The notes beneath the pieces are model-generated. The model was not told where the DNA came from and did no database searches. It saw only the letters and a list, made by a program, of their open reading frames with translations. The position numbers and the translations under genes are program-made. Below are positions 293-23,826 of a stretch of DNA of 36,342 bases, piece by piece. The DNA is from Spirochaetaceae bacterium (GTDB lineage Bacteria; Spirochaetota; Spirochaetia; SZUA-6; Bin103): the NCBI GenBank assembly GCA_028821475.1, contig JAPPGB010000015.1:1-36342 (forward strand). The letters run 5' to 3'. Numbering within the stretch: the stretch's first letter is position 1; each line of letters starts with the position of its first letter.

Positions 293-490
293 CCGAGGGG
301 GTGCAAAATGATACTCAAAGAGCCGCACGCGCGCGCGGCGTGAGCCGGGGTGAACCCGGTGAGTCACACGCCGCGCGCTTCACAAATCTGACTCTGTCTG
401 GCCGGCCGTCTGCGTTGCGGGCGCGAGAGTAGCCAGGGAGCGGCAATCCGTTCCGCAATACCCTCAAGAACACATTTTATGGAGAAAACC
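293..490 (+). promoter_or_regulatory. Conserved dpp leader, copy 1 (upstream of dpp1)
   Basis: This 5' leader closely resembles those at 14782-14978 and, on the minus strand, 23264-23455. It contains an 11-codon ORF at 308-343 and an inverted repeat, GCGCGCGGCGTGA (331-343) against TCACACGCCGCGCGC (364-378), with an inner CCGGG/CCCGG stem at 345-359. Two interleaved complementary pairs follow: GCGTTGCGG (412-420) with CCGTTCCGC (448-456, two mismatches), and GAGAGT (425-430) with ACCCTC (460-465, one mismatch). A CTGGC/GCCAG pair (about 399-403 and 432-436) crosses both. The leader ends at the GGAG ribosome-binding site at 481. This copy is the most degenerate in the second half. Its presence before three paralogous operons suggests cis-regulation; the mechanism is not known. 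Confidence 0.7.
308..343 (+). CDS. Upstream ORF MILKEPHARAA in leader 1
   Basis: Eleven codons (MILKEPHARAA) end in TGA, and the last four codons form the 5' arm of the large GC stem. A purine-rich GAGGGGG lies just before the ATG. Against the copy at 23442-23407, the two differing bases are both third-position and synonymous (CTC/CTG, GAG/GAA), which favours selection on the peptide. A ribosome finishing this ORF would mask the stem, as in leader-peptide attenuation; that link is inference. Confidence 0.55.
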   Translation: MILKEPHARAA

Positions 491-2305
491 ATGAAATATA
501 TCGTAAGCATCAGAATCACCTTCGCGGTTGCGCTGGTCATGATGCTGACCGCGACCGGCCTGTGGGCCACCGGCGCAGACGAGGAGCCGGCAGCCGCCGC
601 CACTGCCGACAGAGAGACGGTGTTCGACCCCGCCACCGGCCAGACGTGGACCGCGCCAGAGTATGGCGGGACACTCACCTGGGCCACCAGGAACTTTCCT
701 GAGAGTACTGACGTGTGGTCGGCTGGTGGCTGGGCGCCTCACTTCATCAGTAGCGTTATAGAGAGGATGACCATTGCCGACTGGGCACTACCCAGGGAAA
801 TGCACGGTACCATGAACTGGGACTATACGGGCCCGGAGATGTACAGAGGCGGTCTGGCCGAAAGCTGGTCAATGGCCGACGACACGACGTTCATCTGGAA
901 CATCCGGCAGGGCGTTAACTGGCATGATAAGCCGCCGGTGAACGGTCGGGAGTTCGATGCTCATGACGTCGTATGGAACTTTCACCGCTATTTTGGTCTG
1001 GGTGAATTCGCCGAAGCCGGACCGAGCCCCCAGCGTTCCATAGTTTATAATCTGGAGTTCCTCTCTGTAACGGCCACCGACAAATGGACCGTTGAGCTCA
1101 AGCTGACGAGGCCTCAGGTGAATGTGGTGCAGTCGCTGTTGCACAGCATGGTTTGGATATACCCCCCCGAGGTATTCGAGGAAGAAGGTGGCTTTGAGGA
1201 CTGGAGGAACCTGGTCGGCACCGGGCCCTATCGACTGACCGACCACGTCGAGGGCAGCTCGGCAACCTGGGAGAAGAATCCCAACTACTGGGGTGTTGAC
1301 GAAAAATTCGGGAACCGCGTGCCCTATATCGACGAGTTACGGGCCCTGAAGATGCCGGACGAGTCAACACGTCTGGCAGCATTGCGCACGGGCAGGATTG
1401 ATATGCTGAGTAACACCGGTGACGCTCACATAACGAATCTCGACAATCTAGAGAGCCTCCAGAAGAGCAATCCTGAACTCGAGGTGTGGCCCGCATATAG
1501 CTTCATACCGGGCACCTTGGTATTTAATCAATCTCGTCCGCTCACTGCCGACATCAATGTGCGCAAGGCACTGCAGATGTCAGTGGACCGCGAAGCAATT
1601 TCCGCTACCTTCTTTAAGGGTTGGGCAGATCCATCACCTTATGGGATATTCCATCAAACTGCCAAAGGGTATGCTTGGCCTTATGAAGAGTGGCCCGACG
1701 AGGTCAAGCGTGAGTATGAGTATCGACCGGATGAAGCAGAAGCGTTGCTCGATGCGGCCGGATATCCTCGCGGCGACGACGGCTATAGATTCAAGATCAC
1801 GGTGAGCAATCTCGTGAGATACGATCCGACCTATGTAGAAATCGTCATGGGTTACTTCGACGCCATTGGCGTTGATAGCGAGCTTAATATTCATAGCGAA
1901 GCTGAGGGTGGAGCTGCCTTTCGCGCGGACACGGTGGAGTGGGAGATATGGGGCGCTGGATATGGATCCTACCGCGGAAGACTACAAGAGGTAGGTCAGG
2001 CGATCCAGAACATTGATAACAGTAGCACCACAAAAGCGGACGATCCGCGTATCGAAGCCCTGTATTATGCCGCCGTTGAAACCACGGACACGGAGGAGCA
2101 TATTGGCTATCAGCGACAGGCCGATGAAATCTCTGTAAGGGAGCACTATGGCCTGGTTAAACCACGCTCCGCCCTTTTTTCCGTGAGCCAGCCGTGGGTG
2201 GAGGGTTTTGTCGGTGAAATGGGTCTTGGCTTCACTGACCGTCATGCCCACTTTTCTCGCGTCTGGATCGATAGTGCGCTGAAGAGAGAAATGACGGGAA
2301 ATTAG
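491..2305 (+). CDS. ABC transporter substrate-binding protein, family 5 (dpp1)
   Basis: A 604-residue periplasmic binding protein of the SBP_bac_5 (DppA/OppA) family captures peptides or oligosaccharides for the permeases encoded next to it. The N-terminus is a signal peptide (MKYIVS, then a hydrophobic run ending GLWATGA at about residue 28) without a lipobox cysteine, so the protein is probably soluble in the periplasm. An acidic/Ala linker follows and then the EYGGTLTWA start of the mature domain. Family landmarks include PPVNGREFDAHDV, LVGTGPYRL, WEKNPNYWG and ALRTGRIDM. I chose ATG 491 rather than the in-frame ATG 479 because GGAG sits at 481-484 and because the paralogues at 14979 and 23263 start at the equivalent ATGAA. 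The substrate is unknown. Confidence 0.93.
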   Translation: MKYIVSIRITFAVALVMMLTATGLWATGADEEPAAAATADRETVFDPATGQTWTAPEYGGTLTWATRNFPESTDVWSAGGWAPHFISSVIERMTIADWALPREMHGTMNWDYTGPEMYRGGLAESWSMADDTTFIWNIRQGVNWHDKPPVNGREFDAHDVVWNFHRYFGLGEFAEAGPSPQRSIVYNLEFLSVTATDKWTVELKLTRPQVNVVQSLLHSMVWIYPPEVFEEEGGFEDWRNLVGTGPYRLTDHVEGSSATWEKNPNYWGVDEKFGNRVPYIDELRALKMPDESTRLAALRTGRIDMLSNTGDAHITNLDNLESLQKSNPELEVWPAYSFIPGTLVFNQSRPLTADINVRKALQMSVDREAISATFFKGWADPSPYGIFHQTAKGYAWPYEEWPDEVKREYEYRPDEAEALLDAAGYPRGDDGYRFKITVSNLVRYDPTYVEIVMGYFDAIGVDSELNIHSEAEGGAAFRADTVEWEIWGAGYGSYRGRLQEVGQAIQNIDNSSTTKADDPRIEALYYAAVETTDTEEHIGYQRQADEISVREHYGLVKPRSALFSVSQPWVEGFVGEMGLGFTDRHAHFSRVWIDSALKREMTGN

Positions 2306-2320
2306 CAGGCATACTCCTGT

Positions 2321-2362
2321 GGAGCTGGGTGGCGGTCGCTTGTGAGCGCGCTTCCCAGCTCC
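2321..2362 (+). promoter_or_regulatory. Intercistronic hairpin between binding protein and permease, dpp1
   Basis: GGAGCTGGG (2321-2329) pairs perfectly with CCCAGCTCC (2354-2362) around a 24-nt loop, in the 80-nt gap after the binding-protein stop. There is no T-tract, so it is not an ordinary terminator. Sequence and position match the hairpins at 16810-16841 and 21388-21419. Such hairpins commonly stabilise the binding-protein mRNA or reduce read-through into permease genes; that role is inferred here. Confidence 0.65.
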
Positions 2363-2385
2363 CATACCTACGGCACTAACAACAC

Positions 2386-3396
2386 ATGAGAACCTATCTC
2401 ATCAGGCGGTTATTGCTCATAATCCCCACCCTGTTCATATTGACCATCATAGTCTTTGTTACGGTCCGCCTTATCCCCGGCGATGTAATAGACACAATGG
2501 TGGCTGAGATGGGCCCTGGATTCCAGTCTGCGGGCGACGTAGACCGCGAAGCTCTGGAGCGTATGCTTGGATTGGACGTGCCTGTCTACGTACAGTATGG
2601 ACGCTGGATAGGAGTGTTGCCGACCCCTGATCGGCTTACCGGCGAGTCCCGCTTTACAGGTCTCCTCCAGGGCACCTTCGGCGTATCGCTGTTTGGCGGT
2701 GGCGTGACGGTGGAGGAGGTCATGATCGGGAGATTGCCAGTCACCATTGAGCTTGGCATTCTGGCAATCGTAGTTGGGCTCGTCATAGCCTTGCCCGTCG
2801 GAGTCTACTCGGCGATCCGCCAGGATACCGCCGCCGACTACGTCGGGCGCACCGCCGCCGTCATCGGCTTGGCAACACCGAACTTCTGGCTGGCAACAAT
2901 GGTCATGCTCTATCCGGCAATCTGGTGGGGCTGGTCGCCACCGGTAGAGTTGATTCCCTTCAAGGAAGACCCGCTGGGGAATCTGGGGATGTTCCTCATT
3001 CCGGCCCTGATTCTGGGGACAGCCCTTGCTGCCAGCACCATGCGGATGACGCGCACCATGATGCTGGAGGTGCTCAGGCAAGACTATATCAGGACGGCTT
3101 GGTCGAAGGGGCTCAGGGAACGGATAGTTGTCATGCGGCACGGCATCAAGAATGCCCTCATCCCGGTAGTTACGCTCGTCGGCCTGCAGCTCCCCCTCCT
3201 GGTAGGTGGCTCCGTTATCATGGAGCAAATATTCGCTCTGCCGGGGCTAGGCAGTTTGTTTGTGGATGCCCTCGATAGCAGAGACTATCCGGTAGTCTCC
3301 GCAATAAACATGATTTTTGCCACCGCGGTGTTGGTGATCAATCTCATGATCGACGCGGTTTATGCTCTCTTGGACCCCAGGATTCGGTATGAATAG
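2386..3396 (+). CDS. ABC transporter permease, DppB-like (dpp1)
   Basis: A 336-residue inner-membrane permease of the BPD_transp_1 superfamily. The N-terminal membrane helix is the typical YLIRRLLLIIPTLF followed by VRLIPGD. Further membrane segments lie around residues 120-150 (GILAIVVGLVIALPVG), 165-185 and 200-220. The cytoplasmic coupling (EAA) loop is around residues 228-258, from LEVLRQDYIRTAWSKG to KNALIPVV. The protein ends LLDPRIRYE, typical of DppB. It lies 80 nt after the binding-protein gene and 15 nt before the DppC-like gene, so it should be co-transcribed with both. No strong Shine-Dalgarno sequence precedes the ATG. Confidence 0.94.
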   Translation: MRTYLIRRLLLIIPTLFILTIIVFVTVRLIPGDVIDTMVAEMGPGFQSAGDVDREALERMLGLDVPVYVQYGRWIGVLPTPDRLTGESRFTGLLQGTFGVSLFGGGVTVEEVMIGRLPVTIELGILAIVVGLVIALPVGVYSAIRQDTAADYVGRTAAVIGLATPNFWLATMVMLYPAIWWGWSPPVELIPFKEDPLGNLGMFLIPALILGTALAASTMRMTRTMMLEVLRQDYIRTAWSKGLRERIVVMRHGIKNALIPVVTLVGLQLPLLVGGSVIMEQIFALPGLGSLFVDALDSRDYPVVSAINMIFATAVLVINLMIDAVYALLDPRIRYE

Positions 3397-3411
3397 AGGA
3401 AAGCGGCGAGT

Positions 3412-4335
3412 ATGAGTGATGAACCATCGCTAGTAAGTGAGCCGAAGAGACGTAACGCAGTTACTGCTTTCTTTGTCAGGCTGTGGACGGAGAAGCCACT
3501 CGGTGTGGCCAGCGGTATCATCATAGTGATATTGCTGTTCGTGGCGATCTTTGCCGATGTGCTGGCGCCTTATTCCTATAAGGAAACGCACCTGATAGAC
3601 AGGCTTACCGGCCCATCATTCCAGTATCTTCTGGGTACCGACCAAGCCGGGCGAGACCTGCTCAGCCGCCTGATCATCGGGGCTCGCGTGTCCGTACTTG
3701 TCGGTCTGGCCGCGACTGCGGTGAATGTCGTCGTCGCTGTCCTGGTCGGCGGCATTTCAGGATTCCTTGGCGGTAGATTGGACCTGGCGATGCAGCGCTT
3801 TGTCGATGCCTGGATGGCGTTTCCGGGACTGTTGCTCTTGCTCACCATCATGTCGATTGTGGGAAGGGGTCTCCTCCAGACCATCATAGTCCTGGGAATT
3901 CTTGGCGGCATCAGCGGCTCGAGAGTCATGAGAAGCGCCGTGATCGGTATCAAGGAGAATGACTATTTTCAGGCCGCCCGGGCCGTGGGCACGCCCACGG
4001 GTCAAATCCTGACTCGCCATGTCCTACCCAACATTATGGCACCCGTCATCATTGTCTTCTCCATTAACATCGGGGGCGTGATTCTGTCTTTGGCTTCTCT
4101 CGGCTTCCTCGGCTATGGTCTGCCGCCCAGCATCCCTGACTGGGGCGGCATGCTCAGCCGGGAAGGGCGCAGGTACATGGAGCAAGCCCCCTGGCTGGCC
4201 CTCTGGCCAGGGCTGTGCCTGACGATTGTGGTGTACAGCTTCAACATGTTGGGTGACGCCCTCAGGGACCTGCTCGATCCGCGGCTGCGGGGTGCCGGCG
4301 GTCGTGCGGCAGGCAGCGGCGCCCCATCGGTTTGA
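3412..4335 (+). CDS. ABC transporter permease, DppC-like (dpp1)
   Basis: A 307-residue permease that would pair with the DppB-like protein. The order is a cytoplasmic tail (about 1-25), a first helix after TEKPLGVASG, the family signature LLGTDQAGRDLLSRL (around residue 74), four or five helices, and the EAA loop (AARAVGTPTGQILTRHVLPN). It ends LLDPRLRG plus a short Gly/Ala tail. An AGGAAAG site precedes ATG 3412. Where dpp2-4 have FLGFGLP, it reads FLGYGLPPSIPDWG, a small difference. The tail and about 30 bp downstream resemble the end of the dpp3 permease at 18934. Confidence 0.94.
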   Translation: MSDEPSLVSEPKRRNAVTAFFVRLWTEKPLGVASGIIIVILLFVAIFADVLAPYSYKETHLIDRLTGPSFQYLLGTDQAGRDLLSRLIIGARVSVLVGLAATAVNVVVAVLVGGISGFLGGRLDLAMQRFVDAWMAFPGLLLLLTIMSIVGRGLLQTIIVLGILGGISGSRVMRSAVIGIKENDYFQAARAVGTPTGQILTRHVLPNIMAPVIIVFSINIGGVILSLASLGFLGYGLPPSIPDWGGMLSREGRRYMEQAPWLALWPGLCLTIVVYSFNMLGDALRDLLDPRLRGAGGRAAGSGAPSV

Positions 4336-14781: not shown

Positions 14782-14978
14782 CGAAGAAGGAGGTTCGAAT
14801 GATACTCAAAGAACCGCACGCGCGCTCGGCGTGGGCCGGGGTGCACCCGGATGAGTCACACGCCGCGCGCTTAGTGAATCTGACTCAGACTGGCCGTCCG
14901 CGTTGCGTGCCCGAGAGTAGCCAGGGAGCGGTAATCCGCTACGCAATACTCTCAAAAATCACTTCGAATGGAGAAACA
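14782..14978 (+). promoter_or_regulatory. Conserved dpp leader, copy 2 (upstream of dpp3)
   Basis: AAGGAGG (14787-14793) precedes an ATG at 14799 that opens the MILKEPHARSA frame. The GC stem (GCGCTCGGCGTG against CACACGCCGCGCGC ending 14870) has one mismatch compared with the other copies, and the inner CCGGG/CCCGG stem is kept. The interleaved pairs are GCGTTGCGT (14900-14908) with CCGCTACGC (14936-14944, two mismatches) and GAGAGTA (14913-14919) with TACTCTC (14947-14953, perfect). In this copy the upstream ORF has lost its stop (TGA to TGG) and is open, in frame, to the binding-protein gene 180 nt later. Confidence 0.7.
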
Positions 14979-21454: not shown

Positions 21455-23263
21455 CTAATAGCCCATGGATTCCTTCAGTTCGCTATCAATCCAAAGGCGG
21501 ACGAGAACGCTTTGCTCATGCATGACTGTGTTCAAGGTCTCTCCGTTAAAACCTTTCACCCACGGATGGCTGTGCTGATACCTTGGAGCCAGCGGACCCC
21601 ATATCTGAAAGTGCTGCTTTATTGCTTCCATACCAAACTCTTTTGCCGCCTTCATCTGCTCATCGACGCTAGTGGCACCGTGATAGGCAGCGTGGGCGGC
21701 GGCCAGCACAGGGCTCTCGACTCCGGCCCCCAGGTGTGCCCTTCGCCATAGGAGGCCCGCGTTATAATGTCCCATGGCCCAGCCCGGGGACTCTATGGCC
21801 ATGTAGCCATAAATCGACTCATAGTCATGTTCTGTCTTAGCAGCGGCTATAGTCGCCCAGTCGGTAACCCTGATCGATGCATCAACGCCAATATCAGCCC
21901 AGTAGCCGGCGACTATTTCTACATAGCCCAAATCTCCGACGTCGCGGTGCACATGTTCGAACTTGAATCGGACGCCGTCCGCGCCGCGCGGATATCCTGC
22001 CTCATCAAGGAGCCTCTCGGCACCTTCCGGGTCGTAGGTGTAGTATCCCTTGAGCTCTGCGGGCCACTCTTCCCATTCGGTGTAATACCCCTTGGTGCCA
22101 ATGTAGCGAGGAGGGTGCCAGTCGGCGAAACCGCCAAAGTAGGTATCGTTAATCGTCTCCTGGTCCAGTGCCATCTGCAGTGCGTGGCGTACTCTGATGT
22201 CGTCAAAGGGTGGCTTGCGAATGTTCAGTATGATGGCATCCAACGAGCGCTGGTAAAATGGCCATACCTCGAGTTCGGGATTGGTCCGCTGGAGGCTCTT
22301 TACCACGTCGATGGATTGTATCTCAGCACCGGAGAGGCGTGTCATATCAATCTTACCCGAGCGCAGTGCCGATAGACGGGTCGCTTCTTCTGCCATATAC
22401 AGGCCCACTAACTTGTCAATATACGGCAAACGGTTCTCCGGGTATTTTTCGTCGTAGCCCCAGTAGTCAGGATTCTTGGTCCAGGTTTTGGAGACGCCTT
22501 CGACGTAGTCGGTCAGCATCATGGGCCCGGTGCCGACCACGTTCTTCCAGTCCGTATAGTCGCCGTATTTCTCGATTACCTCGGGGGGCAATATCCAGAA
22601 CCCAACTTCGGTGACGATAAGCTGCAGCGCATCGAGGTTTGGCTCCGTCAACTTCATAACAACCGTGTATTTGTCGGTGGCCTCTATCGATTCCCATGGC
22701 AGAAAGGAAGCTTGTTTGGTCTCTTGAGGAGGTTCGGTGAAATCGCCCATCGCCAACTGACGGTGAAAGTTAAATACGACATCATCGGCAGTTAGCTCCC
22801 GACCACCTACCAGGCGGCTGGCCTCACTGTCTGGATCAAGGGCGTAGTGAACGCCCTGGCGGACGTTGATGATATAGGTCAGCGGGTCGGGTTGCTCCCA
22901 GCTTTCCGCCAGCTCCTCTGTCCAAGTAAACAGAGGGACGTAGGGCCCATTAAAGGCGAATTCGTTCCTATCCAGACCCCAGTTCGGGACGGCGAGATTC
23001 TGATTGACACCGCCTATGAGCATGCCCGCATAGCCGCCAGTAACAAAGGGGTCGGTAGTTTCGCCTATCAAGGCATACGGAAAGGTCAATGTCCCGCCGT
23101 ACTGTGGCGCCGTCACCGCCTTGCCGGTGGTGGGGTCGGTCACCATTTCCTTCTCCATCGCCGCTGCCGGCGCCTCTTCCGTGCCAGCGCCAGCCCAGAG
23201 GCCGGTTGCGCTCAGAATCAGGACCAACGCAACCGCGAAGGTCCTTGCAATGAATACCTTCAT
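21455..23263 (-). CDS. ABC transporter substrate-binding protein, family 5 (dpp4)
   Basis: A 602-residue SBP_bac_5 periplasmic protein. The signal peptide (RTFAVALVLILSATGLWAGAG) lacks a lipobox Cys. The mature part starts MVTDPTTGKAVTAPQYGGTL and carries GGRELTADDVVFNFHR, VVGTGPMML, WTKNPDYWG, ALRSGKIDM and HALQMALDQ. AAGGAG lies a few nt upstream of ATG 23263. It is preceded by leader copy 3 and, further up, by the promoter-like block shared with dpp3. Compared with dpp1 and dpp3 it has a longer insertion around residues 105-125. Substrate unknown. Confidence 0.93.
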   Translation of the reverse strand: MKVFIARTFAVALVLILSATGLWAGAGTEEAPAAAMEKEMVTDPTTGKAVTAPQYGGTLTFPYALIGETTDPFVTGGYAGMLIGGVNQNLAVPNWGLDRNEFAFNGPYVPLFTWTEELAESWEQPDPLTYIINVRQGVHYALDPDSEASRLVGGRELTADDVVFNFHRQLAMGDFTEPPQETKQASFLPWESIEATDKYTVVMKLTEPNLDALQLIVTEVGFWILPPEVIEKYGDYTDWKNVVGTGPMMLTDYVEGVSKTWTKNPDYWGYDEKYPENRLPYIDKLVGLYMAEEATRLSALRSGKIDMTRLSGAEIQSIDVVKSLQRTNPELEVWPFYQRSLDAIILNIRKPPFDDIRVRHALQMALDQETINDTYFGGFADWHPPRYIGTKGYYTEWEEWPAELKGYYTYDPEGAERLLDEAGYPRGADGVRFKFEHVHRDVGDLGYVEIVAGYWADIGVDASIRVTDWATIAAAKTEHDYESIYGYMAIESPGWAMGHYNAGLLWRRAHLGAGVESPVLAAAHAAYHGATSVDEQMKAAKEFGMEAIKQHFQIWGPLAPRYQHSHPWVKGFNGETLNTVMHEQSVLVRLWIDSELKESMGY

Positions 23264-23455
23264 CGTTTCTCCTTGAATGTTACTTCGAGAGTATTGCGTA
23301 GCGGATTGGCGCTCCCTGGCTACTCTCGCGCCCGCTACGCGGACGGCCAGTCAGAGCCAAATACACTGAAAGCGCGCGGCGTGTGACTCGGCGGGTTCAC
23401 CCGGGCTCACGCCGCGCGCGCGTGCGGTTCTTTCAGTATCATCTTCACCTCCTGT
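23264..23455 (-). promoter_or_regulatory. Conserved dpp leader, copy 3 (upstream of dpp4)
   Basis: This is the best-preserved copy. On the minus strand, AGGAGGTGAAG initiates the MILKEPHARAA ORF (23442-23407). The large GC stem and its inner GGG/CCC stem follow. Then GCGTAGCGG (23340-23332) is perfectly complementary to CCGCTACGC (23304-23296), and CGAGAGTA (23328-23321) to TACTCTCG (23293-23286). The two pairs are interleaved, so they can form a pseudoknot or compete as alternative structures just before the AAGGAG ribosome-binding site. CTGGC/GCCAG offers a third competing pairing. Confidence 0.75.
23407..23442 (-). CDS. Upstream ORF MILKEPHARAA in leader 3
   Basis: An 11-codon ORF with a near-perfect Shine-Dalgarno sequence (AGGAGGTG, 4 nt before ATG). 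The peptide is identical to that in leader 1 although the DNA differs at two synonymous third positions. Its stop codon lies within the 5' arm of the GC stem, so translation and folding should compete. Confidence 0.6.
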   Translation of the reverse strand: MILKEPHARAA

Positions 23456-23651
23456 GCGCCGGCACAAACCGGAAAGGTGTCGTGAGTGGAAGAGTCATAC
23501 GTCGAAGGGTTAGCGACCCACGGCGGCTCCGATTCATGCGCCGTCGCCCGCGAGGGCGGGGGTGAAGCGTTGACCGGGGTACGTGCGGGCCGGGTATCGA
23601 GCCGCGAAAGGAATTACTTTGGGGTGCCGACGCCGTAGGAGGATGCGGAAG

Positions 23652-23760
23652 GCCACAAACCGGTCATTGCGCTGCCTGTCATCGTGACCCTTCATGACCA
23701 TCCGTCGAACCCCATGTGAGGCACGCTAGCATAGGCGCGGCGCGCCTGTCAACGACTCGG
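23652..23760 (-). promoter_or_regulatory. Shared promoter-like block, dpp4 copy
   Basis: On the minus strand, GAGTCG-TTGACA (-35 at 23752-23747) and the following CGCGCCTATGCTAGCGTGCCTC are nearly identical to the dpp3 block at 14521-14632, and the similarity continues to ATGACAGGCAGCGCAATGACCGG. It lies about 300 nt upstream of the leader ORF, so the implied 5' UTR is long. The -10 hexamer is uncertain. Confidence 0.5.
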
Positions 23761-23826
23761 CGGTCACCGGAGGGTGCTTCCTTGGCTTCCTTGCCAACCG
23801 AAGGACCAACGCGCTAGACTGGTTCC

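Follow-up and report, generated by a model that had tools for sequence, protein, structure and literature searches.

PreQ1 riboswitches form H-type and HL-out pseudoknots located 5' of the ribosome-binding site (PMC11625349). Leaders of a second kind, those of metE and ppe2 in Mycobacterium tuberculosis, combine an upstream ORF (uORF) with a riboswitch (PMC11260477). The DNA analysed here, a stretch of 36,342 nt referred to as the window, is one contig (C15) of a 5.73-Mb, 183-contig spirochaete genome, in which many genes for solute-binding proteins (SBPs) of peptide ABC uptake are preceded by a structured leader. This leader resembles preQ1 riboswitches, as these are described in PMC11625349, in having a small knot just before the start codon, helices able to stack coaxially and a likely translational role. 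Unlike in that description, the Shine-Dalgarno (SD) sequence of the SBP gene lies outside the knot, the first loop is filled by a hairpin and the genes downstream encode SBPs; helix P1 is also long and bipartite in remote copies, and the leader has no Rfam match. An SD inside the knot or paired into it would be expected of a preQ1-like element, and pairing of a P2 strand with the SD was predicted in 4 of 34 copies.

A short uORF combined with a structured leader is shared with metE and ppe2, whose upstream ORFs are reported as translated in M. tuberculosis (PMC11260477). The SBP leaders differ from the two leaders of that report in that their uORFs have 2-4 codons (including the stop) or 11, and in that 50 copies occur in one genome. 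A strong SD far upstream of the gene is found in 5' stabilisers of the STAB-SD type, but in the SBP leaders a covarying pseudoknot stands between this SD and the gene, unlike in the STAB-SD elements as presented in PMC7509114. The common post-transcriptional control of many uptake genes that is proposed here recalls the GcvB regulon (oppA/dppA and other uptake genes for peptides and amino acids); GcvB, as generally described, is a trans-acting small RNA, whereas the SBP leader is a folded cis element repeated for each gene.

Rfam 15 gave no match in the leader, its only match being to a group II intron outside it, and an E-value search of positions 23240-23700 against Rfam returned only two further models, both miRNAs at chance level. 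No comparable leader on peptide-SBP genes or in spirochaetes was found in the open-licence literature. Because of these two results, the element is called here a putative new leader family whose kind is known but whose multiplicity and mini-ORFs are unusual.

Architecture of the dpp4 leader

On the minus strand, positions 23340-23286 consist of GCGTAGCGG, 3 nt, CGAGAGTA, 16 nt, CCGCTACGC, 2 nt and TACTCTCG. A reading made from the sequence alone had described interleaved complementarities here, in the order a-b-a'-b' before the start of dpp4, and this description was exact (9 of 9 and 8 of 8 pairs, with spacings of 3, 16 and 2 nt). Interleaved pairs of at least 9 and at least 8 arose in none of 3,000 dinucleotide shuffles of the 55 nt, and lowering the bar to at least 7 and at least 7 again gave none of 3,000. 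The site was unique in the 36-kb window and had no equivalent in five shuffled windows. This indicates that the stretch 23340-23286 is not random. The paired site forms the 3' part of a leader of ~190 nt that belongs to the SBP_bac_5 gene dpp4, with the following features in the window.

21455..23263, minus strand: dpp4, the SBP_bac_5 gene 3' of the leader, 602 aa (PF00496, E 2.2e-59)
23269..23273, minus strand: dpp4 SD, AGGAG (sequence; ATG start at 23263-23261)
23285..23358, minus strand: 3' module, comprising the pseudoknot P1/P2 and hairpins h1 and h2 (R1 model match, 93.3 bits)
23346..23350, minus strand: P1 5' strand, CTGGC (from the alignment)
23316..23320, minus strand: P1 3' strand, GCCAG (from the alignment)
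23321..23327, minus strand: P2 5' strand, GAGAGTA (segment b of the earlier reading, 23321-23328 with the leading C)
23287..23293, minus strand: P2 3' strand, TACTCTC (segment b' of the earlier reading, 23286-23293)
23330..23344, minus strand: h1, local hairpin GTCCGC-GTA-GCGGGC in the P1-P2 loop (97.1 % of cells paired in alignment A3)
23300..23313, minus strand: h2, local hairpin, weakened in dpp4 (AGCG/CGCT; from alignment and folding)
23332-23340 with 23296-23304 (span 23296..23340), minus strand: first pair a-a' of the earlier reading, perfect only in dpp4
23407..23442, minus strand: uORF MILKEPHARAA (ATG ATA CTG AAA GAA CCG CAC GCG CGC GCG GCG TGA; sequence)
23453-23446, minus strand: SD of the uORF, AGGAGGTG (sequence)
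23372..23419, minus strand: P0, 12-bp hairpin rich in G+C, overlapping the uORF with its 5' arm (A2, 97.2 % of cells paired; fold z -3.3)
23354..23389, minus strand: GAGTC (23385-23389) and GGCTC (23354-23358), which may pair the P0 loop with the 3' module as a second pseudoknot
14882..14955, plus strand: dpp3 3' module (P1 14890-14894/14920-14924; P2 14913-14919/14947-14953; uORF start 14799)
390..467, plus strand: dpp1 3' module (P1 398-402/432-436; P2 425-431/459-465, 6 of 7 pairs; uORF 308-343)

The upstream region of dpp2, also in the window, gave no model match. The possible second pseudoknot, GAGTC/GGCTC, was paired in 24 of 24 distinct rows, but its segments are almost invariant and this is weak evidence. 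A group II intron D1-D4-6 match (118 bits) lies directly upstream of the dpp4 leader and antisense to it (window 23491-23684, plus strand); the leader of locus L002 is also preceded by a group II intron D1-D4-6 match.

The CTGGC/GCCAG pair had been taken for a third competitor of the two complementarities. It is present, but is really P1, the partner helix of the second pair (P2), and in this actual knot P1 lies 0 nt from P2, which leaves the topology unstrained. The dpp3 copy, said to keep the second pair perfectly, retains 7 of 7 pairs of P2 and has lost the eighth (C-A); in dpp1, said to keep both pairs with mismatches, the second is retained at 6 of 7, and the perfect first pair occurs in dpp4 only (1 of 35 copies). 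The sequence-only reading, which proposed a pseudoknot or mutually exclusive hairpins, is therefore partly supported: it was correct on the structured nature of the leader, on the second pair as a conserved helix and on the involvement of a pseudoknot, but the first pair is no feature of the family.

Copies of the leader and covariation of the pseudoknot

SBP_bac_5 matches numbered at least 100 in the own genome (100 of 168 candidates were scored), 98 in the congener G002, 22 in a same-family relative and six in another congener. The dpp4 leader had 33 BLAST matches in its own genome. R1, a covariance model of the 74-nt 3' module, was built from 17 copies, with the indel copies L003, L007, L008, L011, L014, L015, L021 and L023 excluded from the seed together with L004, which is identical in sequence to L002. 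It matched 33 places in the own genome, four in G002 and one on the contig of L083, a total of 38, and none in G001 and G003; a further model, R2, had no members beyond those of R1. All 38 modules stand before an SBP reading frame, as located with an SBP HMM built from 27 of these loci. For two of them (L013 and L024) the frame is truncated, the leader being joined to the interior of an SBP gene, apparently through deletion, and these are likely pseudogenes.

Upstream regions were also fetched for 40 SBP genes lacking an R1 match, and ten of these had a remote form of the knot just 5' of the start codon. Remote P1 can reach 13 pairs, divided into two parts by a 2-nt bulge (for example CCCTCGC/GCGAGGG, CCGTCGC/GCGACGG and CCTTCGC/GCGAAGG), and remote P2 has 7-8 pairs. 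A model of P1 only, R3, from which P2 is absent, matched 17 places in the own genome and three in G002, none of which coincides with an R1 place. All 20 lie before an SBP frame; about half of them are seeds or the tenth fetched gene and the rest were independently found. The R1 and R3 sets together amount to 50 copies in the own genome and seven in G002, the latter against 98 SBP matches there. Nearly all copies have the 3' end of the knot ~16-34 nt ahead of the SBP start codon. The fixed position before one gene class that is expected of a cis-regulatory leader was thus found in 38 of 38 and 20 of 20 copies, and a mobile repeat (REP or MITE-like) was rejected on the same ground, with 58 of 58 modules before SBP frames.

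A search with R1 of 26 genomes of the order gave matches only in the congeners G000 and G002. When R3 and R1 were applied to 296 genomes of the phylum, with stricter filters and at most 14-16 candidates per genome scored, only the own genome matched, G002 being unmatched or not drawn. The exact core pattern occurred on seven contigs of the species collection, of which two belong to bin103, one carries a true copy (L083) and the other four had no comparable R1 match (best 16.4 bits). The L083 contig (JAPPFQ010000701.1, 4 kb) is filed in an Acidobacteriota bin and carries a leader and SBP of the spirochaete group; it is probably misbinned, since its SBP is typical of that group. A plasmid or viral origin was considered and rejected, there being no match. 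At L026/L027 (own genome, contig C30, ~1255-3437) a leader is divided: a group II intron match in sense orientation lies in the ~2 kb that separate the 5' module from the 3' module, and the two parts would need splicing to become one leader again. Several head-to-tail units of ~22 nt (GAAGGAACCGGGTGCCACCCAA) lie directly upstream of the leader at L118 and L149.

In the R1 alignment of 17 sequences, P1, h1, P2 and h2 form 92.2 % of cells, with four pairs changed on both sides. Between 10 and 18 of 500 shuffles reached the observed percentage paired, pair count and score, and the R1 set alone is therefore moderate evidence. Across 36 copies (the truncated modules L013 and L022 being left out of this count and that of the first pair, and L071 of the latter), P2 is complete in 24, has 6 of 7 pairs in eight and 5 of 7 in three, and is lost in L014, where its 5' strand is absent through deletion. 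The strands vary together, as GAGAGTA/TACTCTC, GAGAGTG/CACTCTC, GAGAGCA/TGCTCTC, GGGAGTG/CGCTCCC and GAGAACA/TGTTCTC, so the loss of complementarity without compensation named by the earlier reading as a refutation was not seen for the second pair. In L071 (own genome, C62:21600-22700), P2 has 7 of 7 pairs despite a long insertion between its strands, where a palindrome of ~30 nt is found. P1 is imperfect in some divergent copies, such as L072 and L024.

Nine of the remote copies, aligned with MAFFT alone (A8), had seven pairs of P1 and P2 with 15 cells changed on both sides; no shuffle out of 500 equalled the cells or the score, and 4 of 500 equalled the number of pairs. P2 in the 20 remote copies had 91.9 % of cells paired and 19 double-changed cells (0 of 500 shuffles), compared with at most 66.7 % paired and five double changes in slid controls; in this test three rows had no letters at the P2 5' strand and L163 was misaligned by one. 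An alternative pairing, UUGCCG/CGGCAA, had been seen in divergent copies before the remote comparison, and from comparison with the remote copies it was later read as a probable distal part of P1. A joint MAFFT alignment of divergent and remote copies was set aside because 5' strands were misplaced.

Two interleaved helices are thus kept by compensatory changes, as expected of an H-type pseudoknot, and the comparison of copies indicates that the family fold is such a pseudoknot, made of P1 and P2, whose first loop contains a hairpin. The P1 3' strand abuts the P2 5' strand in most R1-type copies, with a gap of ~0-2 nt in remote copies, so the two helices can stack end to end. Identity per ten-column block was 0.85-0.98 in most structured stretches and 0.3-0.6 in linkers. 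The SBP genes with leaders have a mean amino-acid identity of 48 %, with a value of 0.59 at four-fold sites (0.31 expected from composition).

Upstream SD sequences and mini-ORFs

A strong SD and a very short ORF are found upstream in most R1-type leaders and about half of the remote leaders. The R1-type order is SD, the 11-codon ORF MILKEPHARAA and then the G+C-rich hairpin P0, with the uORF stop falling in the 5' arm of P0. The uORF starts with NTG in 27 of the 33 motif-bearing copies; the start codon is missing in six, among them L083, in which the frame is shifted. In codons 2-6, 34 deviating cells were distributed as 7, 7 and 20 over codon positions 1, 2 and 3, and of 33 changed codons 17 were synonymous and 16 non-synonymous, although the copies share ancestry and these events are not independent. 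LKEP is kept in the R1 subfamily only. P0 folded better than shuffles in nine of ten leaders tested (z -1.3 to -3.9; 0.05 for L074), and its covariation within the main subfamily was too low to judge.

Among R3-type leaders, a strong SD precedes an ORF of 2-4 codons including the stop in 9 of 20 (M*, L*, MSK*, VKR*, VNM* and MG* are found), and 11 have no mini-ORF. Shuffles gave a mean of 0.14 such patterns and 0 of 300 reached nine, but the pattern was noticed before testing and several of the nine are closely related. SBP genes without the pseudoknot had a mini-ORF after a strong SD in 0 of 23 cases; these controls are the 40 fetched genes minus the ten R3-type loci and seven with a poorly placed start. 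An N-terminal extension of the SBP in place of a leader was rejected, as only 6 of 35 copies (leaving out L013, L022 and L024) have an SBP frame that runs open across the leader. At L028, which has no 5' module, a lone promoter-like match stops 3 nt short of the 3' module; its transcript would then begin at the pseudoknot, which suggests that the 5' part is not needed everywhere.

Candidate roles of the leader

We consider it reasonably probable that the element is a translational leader RNA common to many peptide-SBP genes of one spirochaete genus, in which the knot gates SBP initiation in response to one shared signal, and the leader probably controls the amount of each SBP made. Ribosomes would load at the upstream SD and finish the mini-ORF almost at once, and the knot, at the edge of the SBP initiation site, would set how well a ribosome enters there. 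The shared signal, whether a small molecule, a protein or small RNA, or ribosome supply, would set many peptide SBPs together; it is probably the general nutrient or translation state rather than each transporter's substrate, because the SBPs differ and the leader is common. Ribosome loading is favoured over peptide sensing because the R3 ORFs encode almost no peptide. The SBP ribosome-binding site lies outside the pseudoknot, with the SD downstream of P2. Its occlusion by local hairpins was weakly above chance (46 of 54 versus 39.7 ± 3.0), this count and that of P2 3' strand pairing to the SD leaving out L013, L022, L014 and L024. A transcription attenuator would have an intrinsic terminator, and no terminator-like site was found on the minus strand at 23100-23800 in the dpp4 copy. 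A bolder reading, possible but doubtful, is a new class of leader RNA: a ribosome waiting on a minimal uORF, often no more than a start and a stop, would govern folding of the knot before at least 50 paralogous SBP genes, so that one signal might tune the whole of a symbiont's peptide scavenging. Among the 50 copies in one genome are naturally occurring compensatory mutants for both helices, a resource rarely available for a leader RNA that is uncharacterised. If translation control is true, the family would illustrate how more than 100 binding proteins can form a single regulon through a cis element that is repeated, and the uORFs of 2-4 codons would offer a clean test of ribosome loading alone, without a peptide, controlling a downstream fold.

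The strongest rival is mRNA stabilisation, in which the upstream SD binds a ribosome and with the knot protects the 5' end of the SBP mRNA, giving an excess of SBP over permeases with no regulation. SD-dependent stabilisation is described for ermC, ompA and others in PMC7509114. The longest match to the anti-SD averages 5.6 nt for the upstream SDs and 4.4 nt for the SDs of the SBP genes themselves, and the ultra-short ORFs encode no useful peptide. This account is nonetheless unlikely: it leaves unexplained why compensatory change has kept two helices at a constant, short spacing ahead of the SBP start, and L028 would start at the pseudoknot, without a 5' module. Attenuation by a leader peptide, where stalling in MILKEPH... 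would open P0 and refold the downstream RNA as in translational attenuators, might account for the LKEP kept with third-position variation in the R1 subfamily and for the uORF stop in the P0 5' arm. It is quite improbable, given that L083 reads another frame and that R3 leaders have unrelated ORFs of 2-4 codons (including the stop) or none, so that a sensed peptide is hardly the mechanism of the family. That there is no functional RNA, and the copies are alike through recent SBP duplication or homogenising recombination, is barely credible: all copies do stand before paralogous SBPs, several are near contig ends and the DNA of the signal peptide is also conserved (0.78 at four-fold sites), but linkers have diverged while the helices change in compensating pairs, which contradicts it.

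The switch first proposed for this site, with a-a' and b-b' as mutually exclusive hairpins, is very improbable. The first pair was rejected as a helix of the family, as it is perfect in dpp4 alone among the 35 copies (next best copy, 7 nt) and homologues lose it without compensation, the loss that had been named beforehand as refuting. In the R1 alignment of 17 sequences it forms 81.0 % of cells and shows no compensatory change, and one of 17 copies forms the central A-U. Forcing it cost 7.5-21.5 kcal/mol in 12 of 12 other 74-nt copies folded. Its perfection in dpp4 stems from two departures of this copy from the consensus, a single base in the h1 loop and another in h2. For dpp4 alone, switching by way of the first pair is conceivable, and bistability, if present in any copy, would be in this one. 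In the bare 74-nt module of dpp4 the forced first pair was 3.5 kcal/mol worse, whereas in a 95-nt context the two folds were near-equal, that with the first pair being 0.3 kcal/mol better (-31.9 versus -31.6 kcal/mol); in this alternative fold the freed P2 strand is predicted to pair with the SD.
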